This document shows, piece by piece, positions 540 through 34,527 of a DNA stretch of 34,527 bases; position 1 is the stretch's first letter, and every line of letters starts with the position of its first letter. Both the position numbers and the translations under genes were made by a program. The notes beneath the pieces were generated by a model. It had not been told where the DNA came from and made no database searches. It saw only the letters and a list, made by a program, of their open reading frames with translations. Origin of the DNA: a virus; IMG/VR virus record IMGVR_UViG_3300048592_000257, positions 1 to 34,527 of that record, one strand, 5' to 3'.

Positions 540-739
540 GGCTCGCGCTGCAACGGCAGCACGTTCTCGCGCTTGAGGTAGCCGACCAGCGCCGAGACGA
601 ACGTCACGGATGCCGCGACCAGCGTCGGGCGCAGCTCGATGCCGACCTGGGCGACCATCTCTGTTGCAAGCGTCATGCCCATACCGGCGAGCGTCGCCGC
701 GGTGATGGTGCTCGACGGTGGGCGCAGATTGTCGATCAT
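536..739 (-). CDS. Putative holin
   Basis: A 67-aa protein with two hydrophobic stretches (about residues 13-30 and 38-54) separated by a short polar turn and followed by a charged C-terminus (YLKRENVLPLQREP). This matches a small two-transmembrane holin, which makes the inner-membrane lesion that releases or activates the endolysin. It sits directly upstream of Rz/Rz1 and the endolysin, overlapping the Rz start by GTGA. No family-specific motif is visible, so the call is by topology and lysis-cassette position. The preceding membrane protein (751-1095) is the alternative holin candidate. Confidence 0.68.
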   Translation of the reverse strand: MIDNLRPPSSTITAATLAGMGMTLATEMVAQVGIELRPTLVAASVTFVSALVGYLKRENVLPLQREP

Positions 740-750
740 GGCCTGTACTC

Positions 751-1095
751 CTATTGCCTCTGTCGCAGCAGATCGGTGATGGTGCGCAGATCGTCCTTCA
801 GTTCGCGCCGCGTGGTGTCGATGGCGCCGCGCAGCTCGGCCACGGCCCGGTCGGTGCGATCGCGCCCCTCGGCCAGCTCCCGATGCAGACTGCCATGCAC
901 GGCCTCGTTGAGGTCGGCTTGCCGCTGGCAGTCGGCGCGGTTCGCCTTGGTGCGTTCCAGCTCATCGACCCGCACATCGACATCATCGAGCCTGCGCATC
1001 AGCACGTTCTTCGCGATCCAGCCCCACGCGCCGATGAGCAGCGCACCGAGCCAGCCGAACACCGTGGCCTGGAAGTGCGGCGATTGCTCATCCAC
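751..1095 (-). CDS. Membrane-anchored coiled-coil protein, lysis cassette
   Basis: A 114-aa protein with one N-terminal membrane segment (about residues 10-30, VFGWLGALLIGAWGWIA) followed by a long charged helix with heptad-like spacing (LDDVDVRVDELERTK and onward to the C-terminus). It lies between the spike-base-like gene and the holin, eleven bases from the latter. Similar single-TM plus coiled-coil proteins are common beside phage holins and are sometimes annotated as holin-like or lysis accessory proteins. I do not recognise a specific family. It could be a second holin or a holin regulator. Confidence 0.7.
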   Translation of the reverse strand: MDEQSPHFQATVFGWLGALLIGAWGWIAKNVLMRRLDDVDVRVDELERTKANRADCQRQADLNEAVHGSLHRELAEGRDRTDRAVAELRGAIDTTRRELKDDLRTITDLLRQRQ

Positions 1096-1101
1096 TGCGC
1101 G

Positions 1102-1362
1102 TCACTTGACCGCGACAATGCCGAGCGTCGCCGAGGCATCGCTGCCCGTGGCGAGAAAGCGCCGCGCGCTGTAGGGGTAATACGCCCCGCCGGTGACGAC
1201 CAGCGTGACGGTGCCGCCGGGCGCAGTGGCAGCATCCCACGGCTCGGCCGGCTCGATGACGAGCGTGCCGCTGCCGTTGACGTGGAACCCGCGGGCGCCG
1301 TCGTAGACCGTGGTGTCGGACAGCGTGACGGCGGTCAGCTTCTTGGCTGGGTCGGTTTTCAT
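1102..1362 (-). CDS. Small beta-rich protein, spike base-like (RCAP_Rcc01079 type)
   Basis: An 86-aa protein, rich in short beta-forming runs, with the pattern AVTLSDTT near the N-terminus, a central GTLVIEPA strand and the ending ATGSDASATLGIVAVK. The opening and the ATG-T-A-GIVAL-type ending resemble small phage proteins annotated as spike base protein, RCAP_Rcc01079 family. Its start overlaps the stop of the 1819-aa ejection protein by ATGA, so it is co-translated with virion genes. The family match is from memory of the pattern and should be treated as moderate. Confidence 0.66.
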   Translation of the reverse strand: MKTDPAKKLTAVTLSDTTVYDGARGFHVNGSGTLVIEPAEPWDAATAPGGTVTLVVTGGAYYPYSARRFLATGSDASATLGIVAVK

Positions 1363-4300
1363 GGTTGTTGCTCCTTGTTGCGCCCTTCGAGCGCGTCCCG
1401 GTATTGAGTGAGTTGTGTTGCGTCGAGCCCTTTGACGGCCCGCTCGAACAGCTCGTTCAGATCGGCCTGCAGGGCGTCCATGCGTGCGGTTTTCTGCTCC
1501 CCTGACAGCAGCGGGTCGCGCCGGATCGCCAACATGGCGGCGGAGATATCGCGCGCGGCATCCGCCACCTTCGCGCGGCCCCTGTCGAGAGCGAGTAACT
1601 GCGCCTTCTCGTCCTGTCCGAGGTAGCTGCCGAGGTCGTCGGTGCGGTTCTCGCGGCGGATTTTGGCGGCGGTCGCCACGACCTGAGTGACCTGGTCGGC
1701 CAGCTCGTAGAACCGCGTCTCGTAGGACGTGCGCCGATAGGGCGCCTCCCGCAGAAAGCGCCTGGCAATCGGCATCGTCGAGAGCTTACTGGCGGGATCC
1801 TCGCCGGCGCCGGGCGTCGTCACCAGCGAATCGGCCGCCATCAGTGCCCACTGACCGACCGTGCCGAGATAGCCGACGAGCAGCGCTTCAAGCCGCAGCG
1901 GCGACACACCGAACGCCCTGCCGATCGCCACCATGCTCTGCGCCGTCCACGGGCGATATTGCTCCTGCGGTTCGACGTTCTCCAATGAGCGCGGCACGAT
2001 CGGCGCGCCGGTCCAGTATTTGTTGCGGTAGAACACATCGATCAGCGGCTTGACAATTTGCGGTTCCGGGTCGAATGAGAACGTGTTGACCAGCGTGAAC
2101 AGGGCCGCATCCATCAGCGCCTTAGGCTGCCCCTCCTCCATGGCCCGCCACATCGCTTCGGGGATGGTCGAAAACAGCGCCCCCACCTCGAACGGCTTGG
2201 GGATCAGCGCAAAGGTGCTGGTGCCCGGCACCTTGATGGGCCAGTACAGCATCCTGGTTTCTTCCGGCAGCGCCTGGTAGTCGTCGTCGTCCTTGTTCAG
2301 CGCGTAGAGCAGCAGCGCCGGCAGGGTCACGCCGAGCAGCGAGCGCGTCGCGAACCGCAGCGCCCGATCGCCGCCCCAGCCCTGCCGCCCGTTGCGCTCG
2401 AACAGCTCGCGCTCAAGTCGATACAGCCCTTGCAAGCGCGCACCGAGGAACGGCACGGAGTTAGTGAAAAAACGCACGATCTCCGACGTGCCGCGCATGG
2501 CGAAGTCCGAAGATATTTCCCGGCCGGCAAAGGCGGCTTGCCGCTTGGTGGCGCCCTGCGACCGCAGCCGCTTGTACTCGGCCAGCCGCGTCGCCAGCTC
2601 GAAGCTCTGCCCCCACTGGTCCCAGAAGTCGGCAATCTTGGCGGGCGTGTCAAGCAGGTGGTGCCGGTCGATTCGATGCAGGGCCAGCACGAGCCGCTTG
2701 GTCTCGTCGCTCACGCTGTTGCCGAACCCGCCGCCGTTGGCGAGGAAATCTTTAAAGTCCTGGCTTTCCGTGAAGATGTCATAGAAGGCCGCGACGGAAT
2801 CCGTGACCGGCCACTGCCCGCCCCGCGAGAGCGTGTACGCCTGAAAGCTATCGCGCAGCAGGTTCGCGATTTGGAACTCTGGCGTGACAGTCACGCCGCG
2901 GGTCAGGACGCGCTTGGGCAGCCCGAGCGCCTGCTCGACCAGCGTCAGCGGGCGCGGATGATTGATCTCCTGCAGGCTTTGCCACAGCAGCGCGTCGCCG
3001 ATCTGGAACCATACCCGTTCACCGTTGATGAGAATCGAATCGACCTCGTCGATGTTCGGCGGGTGCCCGGTGGTGAAAAACGTCGCCTGCCGTTGCAGCG
3101 CATCGAGCGCCGCCCCGCCGCGGGCGTTGGCCGCGCCGGTCAGCACCGCGATCGCCGCACCCACTTGCAGGTAATGCATCCGGTCCTGCGCGGAAGCGTC
3201 GGGGGCCAAGGCGCGCGCCTCGGCCTCGTCGAGCAGCTTCCGCAGCGTCTCCTCGACCTGCATCATCTGCACCTTCACCACCTGCGTCGATGTCGGCACG
3301 CGCACCGCAAAGCGCGCGCCGGCCCGCCGCGACTCGATGAGCTTGAATAACTGGCGCTTCGCCATGTTTTTCAGACTGGCGTGGACGATCAGCGCCGTGT
3401 TGAGTGTGATGTTCTCAAGGGTGTCGTTGAGGTTTGTCGTGCCGCCGGTCAGCCGCTTGAACACCGACCCCACGGCGCGGCGCCCGGAATCGCCGGCGAA
3501 GGTCTCGCCGCCGAGCGATTCGGCGATGCGGTAAAACGGCACATAGTTCTGATACATCCGTTCCCAGATCGCGCGGGTCTCGCCCGAGACGATGCCGCTC
3601 TGCTGGGCAAAGTCCATCAGCCGCTTGGTGTATTCCTGATATTTGTAGAACGCGGTCTTGATTTCTGCGGCGCGCGGGCTGTTGTTGCCCTTGGCGAGCA
3701 GGGCGCGGATCTCGTCCTCACTGAACAGGTTCTCTTTCCCGTAACGCATCAGCTCGGCGGCCCGCCGCCCGACGAAGTACGCCATCGCGTCGTCCATGTA
3801 CTCGCCGACCGGCGCGAAGATCTGCCGCAGTCCCTCGCCGCTGAATTCCAGATCGCCGTTTGCCGACCACCGCAGGGTGCCGTAGTTGATGAACTGGTTG
3901 GCAATGTTGCGGGCGCCGGCGAGCAGCCGCACCGATTCGTACACGTTGCCGACGCGCCCGGTCACTTCGCGCTCGACCACCTTGATAGCGTGCATCCGAT
4001 CGACCATTGACTGCAGCGCTCGGTCGCCCCAGCCGGCGAGCAGTGCATCGAGCCGCTGGCGCAGCGGCGGGGCCTTGCCGCCGATCTTCGACAGCGCCCG
4101 CGCCTCGGCGCCCTGCAGATACCATTCGTGCATTCGCAGTTGCACGCGCGCGAGCTTGTCGTAAATGCCGAGCCGCTGCGTCTCGGCGACGAATGCCTCG
4201 AAGAAGGTCGGCGCCTTGGCGACCGCTTCGATCTGCTGCGTCAGAAACAGCCGGCCGAACTCGGCGAAGCCCTCATTGACCTTCTTGGCGTCGTAGCTGA

Positions 4301-6818
4301 TGCCCTTCAATTCGTCGGCAAACCGCCGCTCGTGGTAGAGCGTTCGCAGCGTCGGGAATTCCCGATCAATCCAGTGAAAAACCTCGTGCGCGGTGATTTC
4401 CAGGTCGTTGTGCTTCCTGATGCGCACTTCGCCTGTTTTTGGCCTATGGAACCCAAGCAGCGCCTTCGGCCCCTTGAATGGCTTGCCCTGATACACCTTG
4501 ACGCCGAACAGTCGCTGGAACAGATCCATGACATGCTCGCGGCGCACCGGCTCTTTCGGCGGGGCTATCGGCCGGGTCTGGCCGGCGATGGTGAACGGCG
4601 TCGGTTGCGCCGGCGCGCCCCTGGCCTGGTACAGCGACACATAGGCGGCGCCCGGCGCGTTCTCGCGCGGGGCGAGTGATGCCTCGAAGTCGGGCGGCGC
4701 CTCCTTTTGCGGCGCGGCGGGCTGGGTTTCTGTGACATCGTCCGATTGCTGACTGGTTCCTGCGGGGGCTACACTTGAGCCAGTAGGCGGTGCGCTGGAA
4801 GCCGTTTCGGACGTTAGGGACCGGGGGCCGTCAGGCAGCACGGGACCGTCCAGTTGGCCGCCTACGCTCTTTCCACCGCGCGCCGCATTGGTTTTCAGGT
4901 ACGACCGAACCGTATTTGGGTGATCCTTGAAGAAGGACACCACGGACAGCCGCTCGCCGTGTTTCTTCCCCGCCAGCACTTCCGCCACATAGGCGTAACC
5001 GCTCTTGGCATCGACGGCTGCGAGCGCGATGCGCGGCCCCTGATCGCCAGTTCCCTGCTTCAGCAGCACGGCGCTGTCATAGTTGGCCGTCAGCCACGGG
5101 AGGACGCGCCAGTCGTCTGACGTCAGCTCGGGATGATTGCCGTGAACATGGCGCACGGTATTCGCCCGGATCTGCTCGCGAGCGCTTGAGCCAACATCAA
5201 CGCCCGTCCGGGCAAGAAGATCCTGGCGCTTCTCCTCGCTGACCGGCGCAATGATCTCTACGCTTCGGTTGTCGCGCGGATTGGCGCCAACGCGCTGCAC
5301 AAACGACACCAGCTTGTCGGCAGCAAATCGGATCCTCTGGTCCGCCCGCCGAACCTCGTCAGCAATTCGCCTGCCAGGTGCCCCTGCAAGCCCCGCAGGG
5401 GCGGCCGCCGATACAGCGGGAGGAACGGCCGGGATCGGTGGCGTGTCCTCCTGCGGGGCCTGCGGGACGTCGGTTGTGGCGGCGGTGTCAATCCCCGTAA
5501 TTGGTCCCGTTTCGGGGGTAATTGTGGGGATAGACGCGGGCGGCTCCGGTTGGGTGGCTGCCGGCGCTGGCGCCGGACCTTCCTGGATTTCTGGCGTGGC
5601 GCGAGTTGGCGCGACAGGCGGCACTTCCGGGCTTTGCCGTCCAATGACGTCCGGGCCTTCCGGTACGCGAACGTCGCCGGCCTGCACGCCGGGCGGAGTG
5701 TACGGGGGTGCCGGGGATTCTGGCGCCGCAGTTGCGGTAGGCGCTGGCGGCTCCTCCTCGACCGGCGGCATCGCCGGCGGCGCTACGTCGATGCTGGGCT
5801 CCGGGCGCCGGCGGCGCCGCATCTCCACGGCACGCTCCTCGGCCCTGCGGTTGGCGCGCTCGCGGGCGGCGCGCATCAGCCCGCCGACGCTCAGTTGCGC
5901 GCCGCCGCCTGCGATGGTCGCCGCTGTGGTATCGCGCACGGCATCGAGAAAGTCCTTGGTGGTCACATCGTCGCGCAGCCCGAGCCGGTAGTCGTCTACG
6001 ATCTGCGCAATCGAGGTGATGTTCTCGCCCGGAAGCTCGGTCGCCGCGAACTTGATCAGCTCCTTGTAGAGCGGCAGGCTTCCCTTGGCGGCACCGTACA
6101 GGGCCTTACCGGGGCCGAACTCGGTAAGCCCTTCCAGAGCGCCGAGCGCCACTCCGCTGCCGAGTGCTTCGGCTTCGCTGCCGCCAGCGTCGAGCACTTC
6201 GCGCCGCCGCGACAAGCCACTACCGGCGGCCAGCGTAGAAGCGCCCACCACCGGGCCGCCGACCAGCGTAGCCGGCAGGGACACCGCCGCGCTGGAAAGC
6301 CCAGAGACCACGGCCCGCTCGATGAGCCCGGCATCCGCCGGCAATGCTTCCTGTTGACCTTCACGGGCCGCCCTTGCGATGCCGGCCTTTTCGGCCGACC
6401 GGCCGCGCTGGACTAGCGACTGCGTGAACTTGTCCGCCGCCTGCTCGCCGAGCCCGGCCTGCATGAACTGGCGTGCCTGGGTGTCGGCGACTTTCGCCTC
6501 GATGTCGTTCAGGGCACTGCCTGCGCTCGCCAGCCAGTCGGTCGTTGTTGCGCCGAGCATCTGTGCGGTTTCGCCCGGCATACGCGGCGCCACTCGTGAG
6601 ACCTCGTGCGCCTGCGCCGGCGACATGACCATGCCCGGCGCCGCCGTGCTGCGGTTGCCGAGCGCGGCCAGCTTCTCGCCGATGCGCTCCGTCCACGACT
6701 TGCCGGACCCCGCATCGACAGATACCAGATCGAATTCCTGCGGATCGTAGGCAACCGGCGCCCCCGGTTCTGATCCGACGACCTCGAACTCCTGCGGGTT
6801 GTAGGACAGTCCAGGCAT
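1359..6818 (-). CDS. Giant multidomain ejection/polyvalent protein (1819 aa) with zincin motif
   Basis: By position and size this is the internal virion protein expected to enter the cell with the DNA, the counterpart of P22 gp16 or T7 gp16. Visible parts in order: two short N-terminal repeats (YNPQEF at 6, YDPQEF at 24); a hydrophobic glycine/alanine-rich stretch around 165-235; a proline-rich linker around 340-480; a region around 490-660 with RHVHGNH at 556-562 that resembles phage barnase/EndoU-type (PBECR) nuclease domains; a zinc-peptidase motif HEVFH at 811-815 with a possible third ligand in NEGFAEF at 848-854; and a long C-terminal region (about 1250-1700, with DDDDY near 1510) resembling large polyvalent protein-associated domain LPD38. 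Start and stop overlap neighbours by ATGA. Domain names are inferred by pattern; the HExxH is directly visible. Confidence 0.82.
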   Translation of the reverse strand: MPGLSYNPQEFEVVGSEPGAPVAYDPQEFDLVSVDAGSGKSWTERIGEKLAALGNRSTAAPGMVMSPAQAHEVSRVAPRMPGETAQMLGATTTDWLASAGSALNDIEAKVADTQARQFMQAGLGEQAADKFTQSLVQRGRSAEKAGIARAAREGQQEALPADAGLIERAVVSGLSSAAVSLPATLVGGPVVGASTLAAGSGLSRRREVLDAGGSEAEALGSGVALGALEGLTEFGPGKALYGAAKGSLPLYKELIKFAATELPGENITSIAQIVDDYRLGLRDDVTTKDFLDAVRDTTAATIAGGGAQLSVGGLMRAARERANRRAEERAVEMRRRRRPEPSIDVAPPAMPPVEEEPPAPTATAAPESPAPPYTPPGVQAGDVRVPEGPDVIGRQSPEVPPVAPTRATPEIQEGPAPAPAATQPEPPASIPTITPETGPITGIDTAATTDVPQAPQEDTPPIPAVPPAVSAAAPAGLAGAPGRRIADEVRRADQRIRFAADKLVSFVQRVGANPRDNRSVEIIAPVSEEKRQDLLARTGVDVGSSAREQIRANTVRHVHGNHPELTSDDWRVLPWLTANYDSAVLLKQGTGDQGPRIALAAVDAKSGYAYVAEVLAGKKHGERLSVVSFFKDHPNTVRSYLKTNAARGGKSVGGQLDGPVLPDGPRSLTSETASSAPPTGSSVAPAGTSQQSDDVTETQPAAPQKEAPPDFEASLAPRENAPGAAYVSLYQARGAPAQPTPFTIAGQTRPIAPPKEPVRREHVMDLFQRLFGVKVYQGKPFKGPKALLGFHRPKTGEVRIRKHNDLEITAHEVFHWIDREFPTLRTLYHERRFADELKGISYDAKKVNEGFAEFGRLFLTQQIEAVAKAPTFFEAFVAETQRLGIYDKLARVQLRMHEWYLQGAEARALSKIGGKAPPLRQRLDALLAGWGDRALQSMVDRMHAIKVVEREVTGRVGNVYESVRLLAGARNIANQFINYGTLRWSANGDLEFSGEGLRQIFAPVGEYMDDAMAYFVGRRAAELMRYGKENLFSEDEIRALLAKGNNSPRAAEIKTAFYKYQEYTKRLMDFAQQSGIVSGETRAIWERMYQNYVPFYRIAESLGGETFAGDSGRRAVGSVFKRLTGGTTNLNDTLENITLNTALIVHASLKNMAKRQLFKLIESRRAGARFAVRVPTSTQVVKVQMMQVEETLRKLLDEAEARALAPDASAQDRMHYLQVGAAIAVLTGAANARGGAALDALQRQATFFTTGHPPNIDEVDSILINGERVWFQIGDALLWQSLQEINHPRPLTLVEQALGLPKRVLTRGVTVTPEFQIANLLRDSFQAYTLSRGGQWPVTDSVAAFYDIFTESQDFKDFLANGGGFGNSVSDETKRLVLALHRIDRHHLLDTPAKIADFWDQWGQSFELATRLAEYKRLRSQGATKRQAAFAGREISSDFAMRGTSEIVRFFTNSVPFLGARLQGLYRLERELFERNGRQGWGGDRALRFATRSLLGVTLPALLLYALNKDDDDYQALPEETRMLYWPIKVPGTSTFALIPKPFEVGALFSTIPEAMWRAMEEGQPKALMDAALFTLVNTFSFDPEPQIVKPLIDVFYRNKYWTGAPIVPRSLENVEPQEQYRPWTAQSMVAIGRAFGVSPLRLEALLVGYLGTVGQWALMAADSLVTTPGAGEDPASKLSTMPIARRFLREAPYRRTSYETRFYELADQVTQVVATAAKIRRENRTDDLGSYLGQDEKAQLLALDRGRAKVADAARDISAAMLAIRRDPLLSGEQKTARMDALQADLNELFERAVKGLDATQLTQYRDALEGRNKEQQP

Positions 6819-14595: not shown

Positions 14596-16668
14596 TTACG
14601 CAGGGATACTCGCGTTTCCAGCCCTGGCGGCGGCCAGCACCTCGGCGAGCGCTTCGGCAATCATCTCGCGCACCTGCTCGGGCGCCACTGCCTGCGCCTC
14701 GGCGAGCTTGGCCTCGGCCTCCATGAGCTTCGCGGTCGCTTCCTTCATGCGCGCTTCCAGCTCGATCCGCTGCGCCTGCTCGGCGGCTGCGGCCTGCGCC
14801 TGGGCAGCCTCGGCCTGCGGGTCCGATCCGGCCTCGCCATCGGACTGCTGGGCCAGCTCGGCGCGCTCGGACGCCTCAAGGAGCTGCGGCGGCACCATCT
14901 TGCGCAACCGCTTGGCTATCTCGTCGGCGCCGGGCCAGTCCATGTTTTGCACGACCTTGTCCATGACGCCGACGACGGCCTGCGGAGCCGCCTGCGCGAG
15001 TGTGCCCATGAGGTCCATCAGCGACTGCGCGGCCTCCATGCGCTGCGTGGTCATCGACGGGCCGGTGGTAACGGCCACGTCGTAACGCTGAGCGCCGAGG
15101 TCCGCCTTGACGGGCGCCCCGTCCTCGCCCTGGGTCTGGTAGTTGATGCGCACGAAGTCCTCGGCATCCTTGGCAGTCTTGACGCGCACCACCCGGTCGG
15201 TGTCATAGACCGCCGGAACCATATCGACCAGGATGCGCCCGACGTGCTCGACGGCCTTGGCGAGTGCGTCGTGCCACTCGAACGTCCCCACATCGCCCTC
15301 GCGCTGACGTGCGAGGATCGCTCTGCCGCTGCTCTCGTTGCTGCGCGCCCCGAGCGATGCGTCATACATACCAATCGTGTTTTTGATGTCGTCGTTGGCG
15401 TGCAGCGCTTGGGCGATCTCGGCAGCCGGGTTGCCGGCCATCGACACCCGCTGCGGCGGTGGCACGCCTTCGCGTGCGCGGTACTTCAGCAGCGTCCGGG
15501 GGCCTTCGCTGGCGGCGGTATAGTCGGACTCGAATCCCGCGATTGACTGCGCATCGGCCAACCACGGGGCTTTCGGCGCCAGCGCCACGGCCTCGGTGGC
15601 GGCCGAGCGCCAGTAGTTGTAAGACCGCTGCGCGTCGTGACTGTGGCGGAACAGCGACTCGTAAACCACCCGGCCATCGACGATCAGCTCGGGGCCGAGC
15701 ACGGGCGCCAGCGGGATATAGCCGCCGTCCCACGGATAGGGACCGTCGAGCACCCCGCCGCCGTCGATCAGCGCCCAGCGCACGTTGCGCTCGTGGCCGC
15801 GTCGATCGCGGTGGATCCCGACGCCAGCCGCCTCGAGCTCCGTCTGCACCTGCCGGTAGTCGCCGAGAGTCATTACCCGCCCATCGGTCAGCTGCACATA
15901 GATTGCGTTCTCCACATCGACGCGGAAATACTCTGCCACCCTGACCGAATCGCCCGGCGCCCAGAATGGCCGCGAGGCTTCCGGCAGGGAATCAATATCG
16001 GTGACATTCTTCCAGCGTTTTTCTGCGGCGCGCCTCGGCAGATCCACGTAGATGAACGCATAACTGGCGGCCGAGAAATCCGGTTCGTTGTCGAACATCC
16101 CGACCGGATCGACCATCACCGAGCACGGGTTTCGCACTGCCTGGATGCACAGCTCCTGCTCGAACCCGTCCGGGCGCGCGTATCGCTTGACCACCCGCAG
16201 CCAGCCGAACCCGCCACGCACGCAATGCTCCAACGCTTTGTCGTAGGCGCGTTCGGCGCGTGAGGTCGCCTCGATGTTCCTGATGATGCCCTCCATCACG
16301 GCGGCGTACGTGTAGTCCTGCGTGCCGGCGACGTTTTTCAGCGCCACCGTGACGGCGTTCGCCTCGATTGGACGGACTTTGATCTGCAGCCGGTTCTGCT
16401 TGCCGTCGCCGAGCACCTGCCGCTCAAACTTCGGCAGTTGGTTGATCGTCAGCTCGACCCGATCGGTGCCGCGGTCCTGGCGCACGCTTTCCGGCCACTG
16501 CGTCCGGCCGGCGCGAAATTCGGTGTCTTTCGCGTGGGCGTCGTACAGCTCGCTCCACACCGATTCGGCCTCGCGGGCCTGCTCGCGCGCTTCGGCGACC
16601 AGATCCGCGTGCTCTGCCTTCTCGTCGCGGGTGTCCTCGCCGCGATCAACGGTCATATCGACATCCAT
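14596..16668 (-). CDS. Portal protein, P22 gp1-like
   Basis: A 690-aa portal of the P22 type (P22 gp1 is 725 aa). Characteristic segments are LTINQLPKFERQVLGDGKQNR near residue 75, the DPVGMFDNEPDFSAASYAF region, a wing domain, IAGFESDYTAASEGPRTLLKY, and NESSGRAILARQREGDVGTF near the stem. The last 90 residues form an Ala/Glu/Gln helix like the long barrel of P22. The dodecamer is the DNA channel and docks terminase and gp4. GAGG lies a few bases before the ATG. The start overlaps the terminase C-terminal ORF by 16 bases. Confidence 0.91.
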   Translation of the reverse strand: MDVDMTVDRGEDTRDEKAEHADLVAEAREQAREAESVWSELYDAHAKDTEFRAGRTQWPESVRQDRGTDRVELTINQLPKFERQVLGDGKQNRLQIKVRPIEANAVTVALKNVAGTQDYTYAAVMEGIIRNIEATSRAERAYDKALEHCVRGGFGWLRVVKRYARPDGFEQELCIQAVRNPCSVMVDPVGMFDNEPDFSAASYAFIYVDLPRRAAEKRWKNVTDIDSLPEASRPFWAPGDSVRVAEYFRVDVENAIYVQLTDGRVMTLGDYRQVQTELEAAGVGIHRDRRGHERNVRWALIDGGGVLDGPYPWDGGYIPLAPVLGPELIVDGRVVYESLFRHSHDAQRSYNYWRSAATEAVALAPKAPWLADAQSIAGFESDYTAASEGPRTLLKYRAREGVPPPQRVSMAGNPAAEIAQALHANDDIKNTIGMYDASLGARSNESSGRAILARQREGDVGTFEWHDALAKAVEHVGRILVDMVPAVYDTDRVVRVKTAKDAEDFVRINYQTQGEDGAPVKADLGAQRYDVAVTTGPSMTTQRMEAAQSLMDLMGTLAQAAPQAVVGVMDKVVQNMDWPGADEIAKRLRKMVPPQLLEASERAELAQQSDGEAGSDPQAEAAQAQAAAAEQAQRIELEARMKEATAKLMEAEAKLAEAQAVAPEQVREMIAEALAEVLAAARAGNASIPA

Positions 16669-17387
16669 GATCCCTCACCTGCCTGTCGGCCCTTGCGGTG
16701 CGCCGGGCGTGTCTCCGGCAGCCACACGAGCACATCCTCTCGGGTGGCGACCAGGTAGCGCAGCGCGTCCATCAGATGATCGTTTTCCTTCACCACGCGA
16801 CCATGGTCGTCGCGCCGGTACAGGCGCAGCTCGGCCTGCATCATTGTCAGCGAGCGAAAGATCTTCAGCCGGCCGGTTGTCAGCCGGTTGTAGACCTCGA
16901 ACAAGCCTGCCTCGACGGCATTCTTCGCCTTGGCCAGCCGCAGCCCGCAGTCCTCGTATTCGCGCATCAGGGTTTTGCCGTCCACCTGGCTGCGCCCGCG
17001 TGACGCCGGATCAATCGCGCCCATCAGCTCCGCGCCGGGCGCCTTGATCGCCGCCGTGTGCACCGCCGGCTCGGCCTCGCCGCGCTTGTATTCGCGGAAG
17101 CAGTAGATGATGTCGTTATCGCGATCCCACGCGCCCCAAGCTGCCGCCGTGCTGCGCCACCCGACATCGAGCCCGTAGCCTCGGGGCCAGTGGCCCGGCA
17201 GCGCGAAGTCGTCGCACACCGCCTCATCGAGCGCCACCGGGTAGATGGCGCCGGCGCCGATGCGGGGGATCCCCTTGGACCGGGCATCGCGCAAATAGGG
17301 CGGCGTCGCTGCGAGCAGCCGCGCCTTTTCCGCCTCGCTCAGATGCGGCACGTCATCCCAACCCACCATCACCACGGATCGGCTCAC
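16653..17387 (-). CDS. terL: Terminase large subunit, C-terminal nuclease half (separate ORF)
   Basis: A 244-aa ORF carrying the RNase H-fold headful nuclease of a large terminase. The metal-binding aspartates are visible: D74 in YGLDVGW, D126 in AIDPAS and D207 in HLMDALRY. The N-terminal part (WDDVPHLSEAEKARLLAATPP, RDARSKGIP, GAIYP) is the usual linker between the two terminase domains. Its GTG start overlaps the TGA of the ATPase ORF as GTGA. A -1 slip at the junction would fuse the two into one normal-length protein of about 490 aa. All catalytic residues are kept, so either true two-chain terminase, frameshift fusion or a sequence error is possible. Confidence 0.88.
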   Translation of the reverse strand: MSRSVVMVGWDDVPHLSEAEKARLLAATPPYLRDARSKGIPRIGAGAIYPVALDEAVCDDFALPGHWPRGYGLDVGWRSTAAAWGAWDRDNDIIYCFREYKRGEAEPAVHTAAIKAPGAELMGAIDPASRGRSQVDGKTLMREYEDCGLRLAKAKNAVEAGLFEVYNRLTTGRLKIFRSLTMMQAELRLYRRDDHGRVVKENDHLMDALRYLVATREDVLVWLPETRPAHRKGRQAGEGSWMSI

Positions 17388-18130
17388 GGTGGCGCGTCTC
17401 CCGGCAGTTCGCCGCCGGGCATGAAGTACAGGACCGTCTCCGACAGCCCTTCAAGCGCGGTGAAGGTACAGAGAATCATGCCGCCGCGCACGCCCGGCGT
17501 GGTCGCAGCAGTGCGGATAAGGCATTCGTTGTACACGTCGAACGGCGGTTCCTCGTCCAGCCATATGACATCCTGCTCGACGCCCTGGAACGCGCGGCGG
17601 CCCTGGTCGTAAGACTTGAAGCCGAGGCGCGACCAGCCGCCCGACACGTGGCGCACCTGCGCCGTGTCGATGGCGTCGGCGATACCGGACTTCGGCCGCG
17701 TCCGCCCGAGACAGGCGCCGGGGATGAGGCCCGCGCCGCGATCGTCGGGGGGGCCGAGCAGTTTTCCCTGAATGATGTCGCGCGTCGTCTGCCCGGTATC
17801 GCCGGCGGCCCATGCGCGGATCGGCCTGTGGAACCTGAAGCCCGGCCACCATTCGGGATAAAGCCCGGTGAGGTGCAGGGTAAGCTCGTAACCGCCCACG
17901 GATTCGGTCTTGCCGACGCGGTTGGCGGCGAGCATACAGCGCTCCTCGTAGTCGAGGCCGCGGCGGAAAAACTCCATGTGTTTTCCGTACAGCTCGCGCC
18001 GCAACGGCCCGGCGTCCGGGTAATAGGTCCAGAGCTTCTTGAGTCGAGCACGGCGGCGCTTCTCAGTGAGTAACCGCAGGTATTCCCGCTTCGCGCTGCT
18101 GCTCGGCGATACGCTGGTCAAGCTCCTCAT
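17384..18130 (-). CDS. terL: Terminase large subunit, N-terminal ATPase half (separate ORF)
   Basis: A 248-aa ORF with the packaging motor ATPase. The Walker A-like motif ANRVGKT spans 69-75, Walker B with catalytic glutamate VIWLDEE spans 188-194, and a coupling motif CTFTALEGLS spans 221-230. The ORF ends DAPP then TGA, where related terminases read on into the nuclease linker. The nuclease is encoded by the next ORF in the -1 frame. The start ATG at 18130 overlaps TerS by 68 bases; no nearer start is evident. It should work with TerS and portal for headful packaging. Confidence 0.88.
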   Translation of the reverse strand: MRSLTSVSPSSSAKREYLRLLTEKRRRARLKKLWTYYPDAGPLRRELYGKHMEFFRRGLDYEERCMLAANRVGKTESVGGYELTLHLTGLYPEWWPGFRFHRPIRAWAAGDTGQTTRDIIQGKLLGPPDDRGAGLIPGACLGRTRPKSGIADAIDTAQVRHVSGGWSRLGFKSYDQGRRAFQGVEQDVIWLDEEPPFDVYNECLIRTAATTPGVRGGMILCTFTALEGLSETVLYFMPGGELPGDAPP

Positions 18131-18539
18131 CGGTCAGGCCATCCAGATCCCGCAGATTGACGTTATCGGTGAACATCGCGAAGTGCCGGCCGATCAGCTC
18201 GAGCGCACGGTTGGCGCCGGCCGCATCGAACTGGTATTGCCCGGTCGGCTCGCCGCGCCGGTCTCGCGCAGGCTCGGCCTGCAGGCACCGATCGACCACA
18301 ATCCGCAGCCGATCCAGCACCCACGCCTCGGATAAAGCCGTTTCTTCGCGCTGCCGCCTCATGCACTCCTCGATGGCGGCCCGCACGCGCTCCCGCGCCA
18401 TCAGCTTGGACCCCGCCACATCGGGCCGCCCCGGCCCGTAGCCGGCCGCCCGCGCGGCCTCGCCGACCCGCAGGTGGACGACGTAGTGATCGACGAAACG
18501 CCGCTGCTTGTCGGTGAGCTTCTTGTAGGCTTCGCCCAT
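18063..18539 (-). CDS. terS: Terminase small subunit
   Basis: A 158-aa protein with the Terminase_2-type N-terminus: LTDKQRRFVDHYV, then GEAARAAGYG (the helix-turn-helix alanine pattern), then GSKLMARERVRAAIEE. The middle helices (LDRLRIVVDRCL) and the C-terminal NRALELIGRHFAMFTD fit the oligomerisation region and tail of this family. It recognises the pac site and loads DNA on the large subunit. It sits immediately upstream of the ATPase ORF, as is normal. The pac site itself was not identified. Confidence 0.9.
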   Translation of the reverse strand: MGEAYKKLTDKQRRFVDHYVVHLRVGEAARAAGYGPGRPDVAGSKLMARERVRAAIEECMRRQREETALSEAWVLDRLRIVVDRCLQAEPARDRRGEPTGQYQFDAAGANRALELIGRHFAMFTDNVNLRDLDGLTDEELDQRIAEQQREAGIPAVTH

Positions 18540-18540
18540 G

Positions 18541-18783
18541 TCAGTGCGCCACCGCCAGAGTGGACAGCGTCATATCGCCGATCCTCGCGCCTTCCGGGCC
18601 GATGATCCGGCAGCGGCCGTATGGTGTGGCGTCCGCGATGGTCCACTCCCACGGGCCGGCGATGATCATGGGATATTCCAAAAAGTCGGTGAACGTCTGC
18701 CGGCTGCACACCAGGCGGCGCGCGTTAACGGCGCGCAGCGTGCCGTAGATCTCGGCGACATAGCTGCCGTCGCGGGCGTTCAC
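18541..18783 (-). CDS. Small beta-rich protein between fibre and terminase, unknown
   Basis: An 80-aa protein, from GTG at 18783 overlapping the preceding stop as GTGA. It is strand-rich (YVAEIYGTLRAV, IIAGPWEWTIADATPYG, RCRIIGPEGARIGDMTL). Two cysteines are present. It ends one base before the TerS start codon, so all are one transcript. I recognise no family. The position suggests a small virion or fibre-associated protein, but nothing more specific can be supported. Confidence 0.66.
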   Translation of the reverse strand: MNARDGSYVAEIYGTLRAVNARRLVCSRQTFTDFLEYPMIIAGPWEWTIADATPYGRCRIIGPEGARIGDMTLSTLAVAH

Positions 18784-20336
18784 TGCATCAGCCTCGGGTC
18801 GATTGACTTTATGCCGTTGCGCCACAGCCCTGTCATGTGGTCGGCCAGCGACTCCCACGACGCCAAAATACTTTTGCCAGGAAATTCAAGCATCACGTAA
18901 CCGTACATCGCGCTGATGCCCCACCGGAACCCGAGGAATTTGGGCAATTGCGCCGTGCGGACCACGCCGGCGGAGCTGTAATGCGTTTCGTCGAACAGCA
19001 CCGCGCCGGCCGCATCGTGAACGATCGCATGGGTGCCCCACAGTCGCAGGTTGTGATCCCACATCTGAAACAATCCCAAGGTCCGACCGGCCCCAGCGGC
19101 CGGCAGGCCGCTGTAGCTGTAGACGTATTCGCCAACGCCTGGATCACCTGTCCGCAGTGTAACCGTGATGCTGGCCCCTGCCCCGACTGACAACGAATGC
19201 TCCCAGTTACCCGGCACGCCCCCATAAGTGTCCATCAAGTTGTCAAACTGGTCGCCCGTGTTCCAGCCCATAACAACGCCGATCAGATATGACCGGCTGG
19301 TAAAATCACCTTGATGGCCGCTCGGGCCGCCCCATCCTGTCACTGGCTGGTATTCGCCGAACATCAACAGCCACGGGTCGTCGCCCGGCCAACGATCCAC
19401 TGGCTGCTCAACAATCGCGGTAGTGGTGCCGATCGCATAATCAGGAGCCCCGCCAGATGGGCCGAAGGTGTTAATCGTGGTCGTGCCACCGCTGCCCGCT
19501 GCCAGCGTGCCTTCCATGATGCTCTCGTAATACGCGCCGAGCGAATCCCCGACCACCACACGCCAGCGGTCGTGAGAATCGGCCCGCGTAACATCAGTCG
19601 CCGACACCGGCGCGTAAAGCACTTTATAGGTCGAGTCGATCAGCGGCGCGGTTTCGTAACTGGCCGCGTTCTGCACAGCGCTGACCGTGATGAATTGCCG
19701 CCAGCTCGTTCCGTTGTGTCGAGCCCAGCTCATGTCGAACGCCGGATTAAATGTTGGATTCGTCCCGTCCGGCACCACCACCAGCGTAATGGGATGGTCG
19801 GTCTCATCCCATTCGGGCGACAGCACCATCTCCCGAATGATCGCCGTGATATCGAACACGCAAGTTTGCCCCGCCAGACAATTCGCGGTATTGAGCTGGG
19901 TGTATTGAGTCGTGAGCTTGCCGGCGGAGATCCAGGCATCAATACCGTCCGACGGCGCCACCTGAGCCGTTGCCTGGTCAACTTTCTTGCCGTACACCTT
20001 CGCACCGGCAAAGGACGCGCCGCACGTTACGATGTCGAGCGACAGCGTGGCGGATGAAACGTAGCTATTGCGCAACAGGTCCATCGCGGCCGTTGTGGCC
20101 GGCAACCCGATGCACCAGTTGGTGTCGTCGCCATACGGTGATTGCGGCAATGAGCCGTCTAACGTGGTGGGAGCACTGACAATCACCCCACTTGTCGATG
20201 CGTAAGCCCCGTTTCTACCGATACCGCTGGCGGTGTATTGCACCGTCAGCGGTTCCGGCAGCGCCAGCGCATCGACTGATGCGCCGCCGCCGCCGCTGGC
20301 GTTGCCGCCGCTGATGCTGATGCTGAACCCGCTCAT
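18780..20336 (-). CDS. Putative receptor-binding / tail protein (518 aa)
   Basis: A 518-aa protein with a glycine-rich N-terminus (GGNASGGGGAS), several strand-rich segments with cysteines (CGASFAG, CLAGQTC) and a C-terminal part of alternating aromatic/hydrophobic residues (FQMWDHNLRLWGT, FRWGISAMYGYVML) like jelly-roll or lectin-type folds. It follows the fibre gene and precedes the terminase. I do not recognise a family. A role in host recognition or sugar binding is inferred from composition and position. No reverse transcriptase or variable/template repeat pair was seen, so it is not a diversity-generating-retroelement target. Confidence 0.68.
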   Translation of the reverse strand: MSGFSISISGGNASGGGGASVDALALPEPLTVQYTASGIGRNGAYASTSGVIVSAPTTLDGSLPQSPYGDDTNWCIGLPATTAAMDLLRNSYVSSATLSLDIVTCGASFAGAKVYGKKVDQATAQVAPSDGIDAWISAGKLTTQYTQLNTANCLAGQTCVFDITAIIREMVLSPEWDETDHPITLVVVPDGTNPTFNPAFDMSWARHNGTSWRQFITVSAVQNAASYETAPLIDSTYKVLYAPVSATDVTRADSHDRWRVVVGDSLGAYYESIMEGTLAAGSGGTTTINTFGPSGGAPDYAIGTTTAIVEQPVDRWPGDDPWLLMFGEYQPVTGWGGPSGHQGDFTSRSYLIGVVMGWNTGDQFDNLMDTYGGVPGNWEHSLSVGAGASITVTLRTGDPGVGEYVYSYSGLPAAGAGRTLGLFQMWDHNLRLWGTHAIVHDAAGAVLFDETHYSSAGVVRTAQLPKFLGFRWGISAMYGYVMLEFPGKSILASWESLADHMTGLWRNGIKSIDPRLMQ

Positions 20337-31419: not shown

Positions 31420-31817
31420 CCGCCTACCTGCACAATCTGGCCCGCTGGGCCCGTGGCGTCCGCTGGCTCTGGTCGCGGGACGTGACACGGCTGCCGCCAG
31501 GCGCGCCGCGACCGACGCACGCGATCCGCTACCGGCCGGGCTGGAATCCGTGGAAATTCCTGCCGTGGTATCTGCTCGACATCGGCCCGAACGTGCTGAC
31601 AGGCGGCGCCGTGGAAACGCTATCGGCCATGATGCACCGCCACCGCGACGGGTGGGCGTGGGACAAGATCCTCGACGTGATCGAGCACGTGGACCCGGAG
31701 CACGGGGAAACGGCCGCCAGCTATCGCCCGCTATGGGGCTCGGTGGAGTTGCCCGTGCGCCAGCGCGTCGCGATCTGCTGCGCCTGGGCCGTCGTCCTAT
31801 GGTGGGCGGCGTCGTGA
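31416..31817 (+). CDS. Trp-rich early protein, unknown (133 aa)
   Basis: A 133-aa protein rich in tryptophan: LHNLARWARGVRWLW, WNPWKFLPWYLLDIG, DGWAWDKILDVIEHVD, and a C-terminal hydrophobic run (VAICCAWAVVLWWAAS) that may be a membrane anchor. Two cysteines lie in that run. No family is recognised. Placed just before excisionase, whose GTG overlaps its stop. Membrane association is likely; role unknown. Confidence 0.68.
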   Translation: MTAYLHNLARWARGVRWLWSRDVTRLPPGAPRPTHAIRYRPGWNPWKFLPWYLLDIGPNVLTGGAVETLSAMMHRHRDGWAWDKILDVIEHVDPEHGETAASYRPLWGSVELPVRQRVAICCAWAVVLWWAAS

Positions 31818-32053
31818 CGCTCCTGACGCTGCAAAGCTGGGCCGCGGCCGTTTATGGTGAGGCCGCCCCCGCGGCTGCTACGCTAAGGCGATGGGCGCGG
31901 GACGGGCTGATCTGCCCGGCGCCTGAAAAACACGGGCGCAGCTATTTCGTGCAACCCAACGCCCGGTATCTCGACCATCGGAGTATCCGCCATGCCACCA
32001 CGCCGGCGCGCACCCTCACGGAGAAACTGGCCCGATCATCTGCATTGCCGTGA
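31814..32053 (+). CDS. xis: Excisionase, lambda Xis-like
   Basis: A 79-aa protein from GTG at 31814, overlapping the preceding stop as GTGA. LLTLQSWAAAVYGE then AATLRRWARDGLICPAPEKHG then RSYFVQPNARYLD follows the winged-helix pattern of lambda Xis (TLQEW, then TVRRWVRE, then KDGREYLF). It directs the integrase to excise the prophage. An upstream ATG at 31799 would add five residues (MVGGV). Its 3' end overlaps the integrase start by 62 bases, as xis/int do in lambda. Expression in the early lytic operon fits excision on induction. Confidence 0.85.
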   Translation: MTLLTLQSWAAAVYGEAAPAAATLRRWARDGLICPAPEKHGRSYFVQPNARYLDHRSIRHATTPARTLTEKLARSSALP

Positions 32054-33089
32054 CGGATATTGGAGCTGGCGCGACCCACTGACCGGCAAGGAATACGGGC
32101 TCGGGCGCGATCGCGCCTACGCATTCGCGCAAGCCGTCGAGGCGAATCTGCACACTGCCGGGCTGCGCCGCTCGCCCCGCCTCATCGACCGCATCAGCGG
32201 CGGCGCGGACTTTACGCTCGGCGCCTGGCTCGATCGGTACGGGGAGGCGTTGGCCTGCCGCGACCTGGCCGCCAACACCCGCAAGAGTTACCGCAGCCTG
32301 ATCGCTCGAGCGCGCCGCCAGCTCGGCGACGATACGCCACTACGCTCGATTACCGCGCTCGTCGTGACCGATGCCTGTCGCGCCATCGAGGCGGAAGGCA
32401 AGGGGCGACTCGCGCAAGCGTTCCGCTCGCTGCTAAAGGACTGCTTCCGTGAGGCAGTCGTCGCCGGCTGGCTCGATGACAACCCGGTGCGCGCGACTCG
32501 CCTGCAGCCGGTGGCCGTCAAGCGCGCTCGGTTGACCATCGAGATGTTCCGCGCCGTATACGCCAGCGACGTGCCGCTGTGGCTGCGCATCGCGATGGGG
32601 CTCGCCATTGTCAGCGCCCAGCGCCGTGACGATGTGGCTGCGGCGCAGTTCTCCGATTTCCATGACGGCGGCTGGTGGCTGGTGCAGCGCAAGACCGGCG
32701 CCCGGCTGATGCTGCCGCTGGCATTGCGCCTCGACGCCGTCGGATTGTCACTGGCCGACGTGCTCAGTCAGGCTCGCAAGACCGGCATTGTCTCCCGCCA
32801 CCTGGTCCATCAGACCCGGCCATACGGCAACAGTCCGCTGGGTGAGCAGATATGGGTGGACACCATCAGCCGGCGGTTCACTGATGCGGTCGGCCGGCTC
32901 GGTCACGACTGGCAGGGCAAGACTCCGCCGACCTTCCACGAAATCCGCTCGCTCGCAGAACGCCTGTATTCGCGTCAGGGCGCCGTTCACACCCAGGAGC
33001 TACTCGGCCACCGCGACCCCCGCACGACCGCGCTGTATGCCGATACGCGCGGCGCTGAATGGGTCCGGGTGCGGTTCGGTGAGGGATAA
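31992..33089 (+). CDS. int: Tyrosine-family integrase
   Basis: A 365-aa phage integrase. The arm-binding N-terminus (HCRDGYWSWRDPLTGKEYGLG, lambda-like) is followed by the core-binding domain (about 75-170) and catalytic domain. Active-site residues: R211 in VSAQRRDDV, K234 in RKTG, H316 and R319 in FHEIRSL, H340 in LLGHRD, and nucleophile Y349 in TALYAD. It carries out attP-attB recombination; the probable attP is just downstream. CGGAG precedes the ATG. It is the last gene of the rightward operon and overlaps xis. Confidence 0.94.
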   Translation: MPPRRRAPSRRNWPDHLHCRDGYWSWRDPLTGKEYGLGRDRAYAFAQAVEANLHTAGLRRSPRLIDRISGGADFTLGAWLDRYGEALACRDLAANTRKSYRSLIARARRQLGDDTPLRSITALVVTDACRAIEAEGKGRLAQAFRSLLKDCFREAVVAGWLDDNPVRATRLQPVAVKRARLTIEMFRAVYASDVPLWLRIAMGLAIVSAQRRDDVAAAQFSDFHDGGWWLVQRKTGARLMLPLALRLDAVGLSLADVLSQARKTGIVSRHLVHQTRPYGNSPLGEQIWVDTISRRFTDAVGRLGHDWQGKTPPTFHEIRSLAERLYSRQGAVHTQELLGHRDPRTTALYADTRGAEWVRVRFGEG

Positions 33090-33269
33090 ATTCGGGATGA
33101 ATACGGGACGACCCCAGCAACGGCGCAGTGTTTCACGTGGATCGGATATTGCCCATGCAAACCAGCAAGACCCTCGTAACCCGTTGTTGCGGCGAGACAT
33201 TGTCGCTTTTTCCCGGCGTTGTCGGTGCGTCTATCACGGCGCAAAACGTACCATTACGAGCCAATGCAT
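33090..33269. other. Convergent intergenic region carrying attP
   Basis: 180 bases between the integrase (rightward) and zinc-ribbon gene (leftward). It holds the probable attP core at 33145-33180 and a weak stem GCGA...TCGC followed by five T near 33193-33211, which may end the integrase transcript. No tRNA-like segment was seen. Arm sites for Int were not resolved by eye. Confidence 0.6.
33145..33180 (-). other. Probable attP core: fragment of a host LMW protein-tyrosine phosphatase gene
   Basis: On the minus strand the frame ending at 33145 reads VTRVLLVCMGNI. RVLLVCMGNI is the beta-strand and P-loop start of low-molecular-weight protein-tyrosine phosphatases (consensus continuing CRSPTAEG). 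Here it is followed by RST and a stop, so homology ends near 33145. Phage attP cores commonly carry a piece of the target gene next to int. I infer that the host attB is the 5' part of an LMW-PTP gene and that the recombination site lies in this segment. The exact core length needs the bacterial junction sequence. Confidence 0.55.
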
Positions 33270-33626
33270 TCAAACACTTACCGGCGGATGCGGGAGGGCC
33301 GCGGCGCACTGGTCCGTGCCGGCCCTGCGATGGCGCTGATAGGCGCGCTCGCACGCCTCCATCATCAGCCGATACGGTTCGCTCGCGTGCGCTGCCGCTA
33401 GGTCGTGGTCGATGCTGCCGTAAGCGCCCAGCGCTTCACTGATTCGCGCCGCCAGAGGTTTCTCGCGCCGCCGCTGGCGGCTGTTGTAGTCGCGGTTATA
33501 GGCGCGGTCGCACTCCCGGCAGTACCCGCGCTTGGGGCGGAAGTGAGCGCGGGCGAGTAACTGGCGGCAACGCGGGCACCACTTCAGCCCGGCCCCCAGC
33601 CGGGCGAGATCAAGCCGCTCCGTCAC
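33270..33626 (-). CDS. Zinc-ribbon protein, last gene of leftward operon
   Basis: A 118-aa protein from GTG at 33626. Cysteines C17, C20, C36 and C39 (KWCPRCRQL, YCRECDRA) form a zinc ribbon; then a basic stretch (NRDYNSRQRRREKPLAARI) and a helical end (SEPYRLMMEACERAYQRH). This pattern resembles small DNA-binding or HNH-remnant phage proteins, but the HNH catalytic residues are not evident. It is the last gene before attP, after the lysis genes. It could be a late regulator, homing-endonuclease derivative or lysogenic accessory gene. Confidence 0.68.
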   Translation of the reverse strand: MTERLDLARLGAGLKWCPRCRQLLARAHFRPKRGYCRECDRAYNRDYNSRQRRREKPLAARISEALGAYGSIDHDLAAAHASEPYRLMMEACERAYQRHRRAGTDQCAAALPHPPVSV

Positions 33627-34129: not shown

Positions 34130-34527
34130 GCGTACACCCCGCTCTGCGGTAGTTGAAAATGCGGCCCATCGACCAGCGGCCGGCGCCCGCGGCCGCGACA
34201 GTAACCGACGTAATCGCCGACCAGCCGCGCGAGATCGGTCGCGCCGTCGATCCGCGACCAGCACCCGCCCCACTCCACCGGCAGATCAAGCTCGTCGCCG
34301 GCGCGTGCGAACGACTCGGCGATACGCCGGTACAAGTCAAATTCCCAGCGCACCGCGCCGCCGACGTAGGCGACGACGTCGATCGCATGGCCGGTCAGGT
34401 GCCGGCTGTTCAGTGTCTTGCTCGCGCCCGCCTGGAACAGTTCGACCTGCCGCGCCTTGCTGCGCAACCCTTCAGTCACGCCAAAGTCCACCGTGGACAC
34501 CGCCAGCGCCGCGTGCGCGAGCCGCGC
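34126..34527 (-). CDS. Endolysin, 3' part (M15 peptidase catalytic region)
   Basis: This part (with the duplicated 127 bases) holds the catalytic residues of the 153-aa endolysin: the SxHxxGxAxD motif as SRHLTGHAID (H63 and D70 bind zinc), VEWGG (E105, general base position) and DGPHFQL (H143, third ligand). It is the L-alanyl-D-glutamate peptidase type (T5, A500-like). About 25 extra residues (CWSRIDGATDLARLVGDYV and on) separate WGG from DGPHF, where most relatives have only a short loop. No signal or membrane segment, so holin dependence is expected. The window edge cuts the gene; see the 5' part. Confidence 0.9.
   Translation of the reverse strand, partial: ARLAHAALAVSTVDFGVTEGLRSKARQVELFQAGASKTLNSRHLTGHAIDVVAYVGGAVRWEFDLYRRIAESFARAGDELDLPVEWGGCWSRIDGATDLARLVGDYVGYCRGRGRRPLVDGPHFQLPQSGVYA
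34401..34527. repeat. Right copy of 127-bp terminal direct repeat
   Basis: Exact copy of bases 1-127. Removing one copy restores a single endolysin gene and a circle of 34,400 bp. Confidence 0.93.

Follow-up and report, generated by a model that had tools for sequence, protein, structure and literature searches.

A Probable Lambda-Type Phage Attachment Site within the P-Loop Codons of Tyrosine Phosphatase Genes

The integration module described here very probably recombines within the gene for a low-molecular-weight protein tyrosine phosphatase (LMW-PTP, hereafter PTP) of the host. In this reading, positions 33145-33159 of the window, which is the whole stretch of DNA analyzed (34,527 nucleotides), form the core of attP in a lambda-type module, the attB is formed by the P-loop codons (C-M-G-N-I-C) of the host gene, and the 5' end of that gene is supplied by the phage. 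The evidence comes from the window, from the attachment sites of other phages and from an integrated provirus, G032. The mechanism is supported by more than a single fragment, as G032 is a natural lysogen in which both junctions can be read. The features of the window are as follows.

Source record: IMGVR_UViG_3300048592_000257, 34,527 nt, IMG/VR virus
31814..32053, plus strand: xis, excisionase of 79 aa with a GTG start, overlapping the start of int (PF07825 Exc, E=5e-15; phrog_629, E=1.5e-19)
31992..33089, plus strand: int, lambda/HK022-type tyrosine integrase of 365 aa with an N-terminal arm-binding domain (Pfam)
33133..33144, minus strand: phage codons CGA TCC ACG TGA after the core, where the PTP frame ends as RST* (compare MAARFRVLMVCMGNIC-FPYERAVRVRNSCGMR* in G032)
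33145..33159, minus strand: probable attP core TGCATGGGCAATATC, encoding the P-loop residues C-M-G-N-I; 15 of the 18 bases of the G032 core
33160..33180, minus strand: PTP-like segment GTT ACG AGG GTC TTG CTG GTT (VTRVLLV), upstream of the core
33181..33237, minus strand: phage sequence preceding the core, in frame and open, where GTG at 33237-33235 is a possible start (VIDAPTTPGKSDNVSPQQR...)
33189..33206, plus strand: terminator-like hairpin and T run just past the core (consensus match alone; 1 found, 0.3 expected)

The integration module and its phosphatase segment

The window carries a perfect terminal direct repeat of 127 bp (1-127 = 34401-34527), which indicates that the phage genome can circularize and that the PTP segment is flanked by phage DNA on either side. 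The head and packaging genes are those of a P22/VvAW1-like podovirus, and the portal protein is 45% identical to that of Vibrio phage VvAW1. The closest relative of the window, L039/L040 (G001), is collinear with it and has a major capsid protein that is 85% identical; its contig ends on either side of the int-attP region. The window also encodes a polyvalent-type protein of 1819 aa (1359-6818, minus strand), which matches a phrog annotated as DNA methyltransferase.

The integrase (Int) possesses arm-binding (PF09003, E=1e-12), core-binding (PF22022, E=3e-7) and catalytic (PF00589, E=6e-12) domains and shares 42% identity with HK022 Int across 99% of its length. When aligned with the Ints of two viral contigs, L002 and L003, the catalytic residues R211/R212, H316/R319, H340 and Y349 are invariant. 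Based on these domains and on the R, H-x-x-R, H and nucleophilic Y residues, the protein can be classed as a lambda-type, arm-binding integrase. The arrangement of the module, with xis overlapping int and attP directly 3' of int, likewise appears to be the lambda-type xis-int-attP layout. Short direct and inverted repeats were also listed for the window, and the hairpin at 33189..33206 possibly ends int transcripts. Directly beyond attP, a short ORF on the minus strand (33270-33626) has weak similarity to endonuclease VII and HNH proteins.

The PTP segment begins 56 bp past the int stop (33089). Read on the minus strand from 33180 to 33145, GTT ACG AGG GTC TTG CTG GTT TGC ATG GGC AAT ATC encodes VTRVLLVCMGNI, and the codons that follow directly encode RST*. 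The earlier note had described an LMW-PTP start beyond int that diverges and then stops, and had considered it too specific to be chance in a gap of 180 bases. Both statements hold. For the P-loop motif, scored as [VI][LI][FLMVI][VIL]C[MLTVE]GN[ITVS], the number expected from the base composition of the gap is 6e-7 for the 180-bp gap and 1e-4 for the genome, against one observed. A complete PTP gene is absent from the phage, as the PF01451 profile has no match in the whole window. With its frame stopping three codons after CMGNI, the segment is not a phage-encoded LMW-PTP, which would have a full PF01451 match and a CX5R P-loop.

Upstream of the core, the PTP frame is open to at least 33354, a distance of at least 50 codons, and by analogy with G032 the codons at 33160..33180 would be the phage-supplied replacement for the PTP N-terminus. 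The earlier proposal that a phosphatase could be started by the phage at GTG 33237 stands in so far as this codon is in frame and the frame is open, but no Shine-Dalgarno sequence was found at the codon and no sigma-70-like promoter match was found. Nor does an ATG or another good start codon adjoin VTRVLLV in the window.

Both junctions of an integrated provirus

G032 (IMGVR_UViG_3300042362_000235, 59,826 bp) is an integrated provirus in which both junctions are visible. Its Int (736-1785, minus strand) is of the lambda type and 42% identical to the window Int. At the left junction, the end of uvrB is followed by the native PTP start, MAARFRVLMV, by the core TGCATGGGCAATATCTGC at 584-601 and then by phage sequence that stops the frame. 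At the right junction, the phage side reads ATG AGA AAA GCG GCT GTT TTG TTC GTC (MRKAAVLFV) and continues in frame into an identical 18-bp core at 58189-58206, beyond which the host sequence runs from CRSPTAEG... through the end of PTP to iscR and iscS. G032 is the case in which the core repeat is found at both junctions inside the target gene. The genes of the flanks were identified by Pfam as UvrB, LMWPc, Rrf2 and a class-V aminotransferase. When the host flanks are joined, they encode an intact LMW-PTP of 157 aa (PF01451, E=9e-37), and the hybrid PTP of the lysogen is likewise intact (PF01451, E=7e-38). As read from the DNA, the junctions of G032 show that the crossover lay in the P-loop codons and that the PTP N-terminus was evidently replaced in frame by phage codons.

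The window attP and the G032 core have 15 consecutive bases in common (TGCATGGGCAATATC within TGCATGGGCAATATCTGC), and the two elements share a layout in which the 3' end of int is followed by the core and then by PTP-coding sequence leading away from int. The earlier proposal that int targets a host LMW-PTP gene at its 5' end and replaces that end is therefore supported by the G032 junctions, not by the window phage's own host. The comparison of prophage junctions with an uninterrupted phosphatase gene is likewise provided by G032, with its 18-bp core, its in-frame hybrid and its flanks that rejoin into an intact PTP. The further idea that integration could alter capsule or receptor is unsupported, since the G032 target is the copy in the order uvrB-ptp-iscR-iscS, with no capsule gene adjoining. 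At the right end of G032, HicA/HicB-like toxin-antitoxin genes (L062:11666-12186) are located between a giant polyvalent-protein gene and the PTP junction.

Phosphatase starts at the attachment sites of other phages

An LMW-PTP gene start was found at the attachment site of eight other lambda-type phages: L002, L003, L050, L057, L059, L064, L092 and G032. L055 has a PTP start as well, but no Int is visible on its contig. Among 2.9 million viral contigs, the only relatives of the window Int were those of L002 and L003 (55% identity), and both share the layout of the window, in which the PTP start closely follows the 3' end of int and lies on the other strand. The attP of L003 reads ATG AAA TAT CGA ATC TTG TTT GTG TGC CTC GGC/AGC AGA (MKYRILFVCLG/SRCST), and that of L002 encodes (MNNKRK)VRILMVCLG/STWGC. 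A second tyrosine integrase gene is present directly beyond the L003 attP (L003:7393-8238).

A degenerate P-loop DNA pattern was found in 29 viral contigs, against an estimated 30 or so expected by chance, and for this reason the count itself was not used as evidence. Association with an integrase, similarity extending past the pattern and the two-ended provirus were used instead. A PF00589 match was present in only six of the 29 contigs (the scan did not catch the G032 Int), and in all six the site was near it. In the four that are of the lambda type (L050, L059, L064 and L057), the PTP frame is lost right after the P-loop, while in the two P4-type contigs (L061 and L070) the integrase is beside an intact PTP. 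The Int of L092 is 71% identical to that of L059, and the site is present there too, as VLFICMGNT.

Across nine attPs, pairwise differences in the codons for V-L-F-V-C-M-G number 69/8/135 at codon positions 1/2/3. Such conservation of second positions is what would be expected if the fragments derive from the PTP genes of different hosts. The similarity to PTP is also lopsided. On the 5' side of the core it extends through the beta-strand, keeping the PTP-type residues V-L-F/M/L-V/I, and an in-frame ATG is present in L002, L003, L055, L057 and L064. On the 3' side it is lost immediately or after a few bases. Such a pattern is expected if a functional 5' end has to come from the phage, whereas nothing 3' of the core has to.

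In the lambda-type phages with a PTP site, the fragment is mostly within about 100 bp of int. Its direction relative to int is reversed in L064. In L082/G018 (2580-2700), the PTP fragment and int run in the same direction, unlike in the window and every other lambda-type case, and after integration the PTP 5' end would come from the int side. The PTP-type attP of L083/G017 (15828-18793) is 1.7 kb from int, and a ClpP/SDH-like serine protease gene (PF01972) lies between them, apparently as cargo inserted between int and attP. Several candidates were rejected. The family of L053, L060, L068, L069, L072 and L073 (S/LVCMGNIRSNIRFK...) lacks both an integrase and PTP-like residues upstream and was attributed to chance. 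Of the INPHARED phages with a PTP start, the two records examined were also set aside, as neither shows the arrangement described here and the ruvB-ptp of Javan141 is host flank; most of the remaining INPHARED matches are to records that carry no annotation.

Integrase relationships and the search for a host site

Not all Ints related to that of the window use the PTP site. No PTP start or motif was found near int in lambda, HK022, Pseudomonas phi2 or a Burkholderia cenocepacia prophage, and no PTP start was found near int in one Stenotrophomonas and one Marinobacter element. A tree of 13 Ints groups the window with L002 and L003 (92/94), L059 with L092, and L064 with L057; the G032 Int is paired with an Int from Burkholderia that is not located at a PTP gene. 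A single clade of PTP-site Ints was rejected in a tree test of these 13 rows only (p-AU 0.0003). Together with the P4-type cases, the tree suggests that the PTP site may have been gained or lost more than once.

An exact match to GTYTTGCTGGTYTGCATGGGCAAYATC was found in none of 84,980 species genomes. This 27-base pattern overran the probable core of 15-18 bp into the part supplied by the phage, so its failure to match is weak evidence against a host site. The exact pattern of core plus flank, which extended beyond the 15-18 bp core as well, was also unmatched in viral contigs. No relatives of the window Int were detected in species genome contigs by the patterns used, and blastn searches of phages, plasmids and E. 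coli with the 68-bp att region gave matches at chance level alone.

Proposed mechanism and alternative readings

Int would recombine 33145-33159 (TGCATGGGCAATATC) with the same codons in the PTP gene of the host. In the resulting prophage, the host promoter, start and first PTP codons would run into phage DNA on the int side and stop (...CMGNI-RST*), so that the RST* at 33133..33144 would truncate the displaced native 5' end. On the far side, phage sequence from 33181 upward and then VTRVLLV, a PTP-like beta-strand, would form the new 5' end, joined in frame to the body of the host PTP (CRSP...). A lysogen could then produce a hybrid PTP whose 5' end comes from the phage, and the original gene would be restored on excision. 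An element-encoded start with an in-frame 5' end is present in G032, L002, L003, L055, L057 and L064, whereas the window has GTG 33237 alone.

Phages can acquire flanking host DNA, and the PTP fragment might be host DNA captured by imprecise excision, with the true attP elsewhere in the 33090-33270 gap. That no attL or attR of the window phage was found in the searched genomes agrees with such an origin. However, the fragment ends at the same P-loop codons in eight other, divergent lambda-type phages, and the core repeated at both junctions of G032 is exactly those codons, which contradicts capture and leaves it highly improbable. It is even harder to credit a target of the same fold but another function, such as a thioredoxin-coupled arsenate reductase. 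ArsC proteins of the LMW-PTP fold do have a similar P-loop, and no computed result favors them. Their P-loops read CTGNSCRS, whereas the C-M/L-G-N-I/T encoded by the attPs belongs to the PTP type. The target in G032, located in the order uvrB-ptp-iscR-iscS, matches LMWPc in full length, at 157 aa.

A more serious alternative, although still an unlikely one, accepts the site but holds that insertion inactivates the PTP gene, in which case the similarity on the phage side would be a relic and a lysogen of the window phage would make no phosphatase. The missing start and promoter signals of the window, namely an ATG by VTRVLLV, a Shine-Dalgarno sequence at GTG 33237 and a sigma-70-like promoter, favor this explanation. 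Against it, the hybrid ORF of G032 is intact and has a phage ATG, and an ATG is also preserved in five other attPs. The residues V-L-F/M/L-V/I are retained on the 5' side of the core, whereas similarity on the 3' side disappears immediately. The frame of the window is likewise open. Overall, these phages very probably recombine at PTP P-loop codons and supply a replacement 5' end. For the window phage, the matching attB of its host, the start codon after integration and the effect on phosphatase level and downstream genes are extrapolations from this mechanism.

Significance and comparison with known systems

The catalytic-loop sequence of a conserved signaling enzyme is apparently a new integration target for lambda-type phages. 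No published description of integration into PTP was found in the open literature searched, which does not include most subscription journals. The site predicts attB sites in the hosts of uncultured phages and makes available integrases whose attB is protein-coding and widespread, and the takeover of a tyrosine phosphatase and its neighbors' expression by a prophage becomes directly testable. More speculatively, the P-loop codons of housekeeping PTP genes may be a recurrent, tRNA-like anchor for several integrase lineages, of the lambda type on more than one occasion and also of the P4 type, whose phages keep a working promoter and N-terminus, with lysogeny placing the phosphatase, and perhaps iscR-iscS, under phage control; this broader picture is tentative.

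The modules of lambda and HK022 resemble that of the window in their arm-binding, core-binding and catalytic domains, in an xis that overlaps int and in an attP just 3' of int. In contrast, they have no PTP P-loop motif by int, and the core of the present module would lie inside a protein-coding gene. The attB sites of lambda and HK022 are intergenic in E. coli. The dusA-associated integrases and islands insert in the 5' part of a conserved gene at a 21-bp core and supply a new 5' end (Farrugia et al., 2015; PMC4482086). The short core (18 bp in G032) and the 5' end supplied by the element are features shared with G032, while the integrase family and the target gene differ. Here an LMW-PTP is targeted and int has its 3' end toward the core, whereas in the DusA-associated family the 5' end of int adjoins the 5' end of dusA.

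A prophage region of Xylella fastidiosa (xpd6/xop10/cvc-r4/al-r2), common to four strains, is bordered by 'epsP', and a phosphotyrosine protein phosphatase, XF2298, is listed in cvc-r4 (PMC2605562). That article does not identify attB with the phosphatase gene; by analogy, the region is possibly an unrecognized case of the PTP target. In the P4-type elements L061/L085 (G031) and L070/L084 (G039), the integrase is about 100-150 bp from the PTP start (first 1.3 kb of L084 and L085). They differ from the lambda-type cases in possessing an arm domain of the PF13356 type, an int that points away from PTP and a single visible junction. A second integrase lineage, of the P4 type, may thus use PTP genes.
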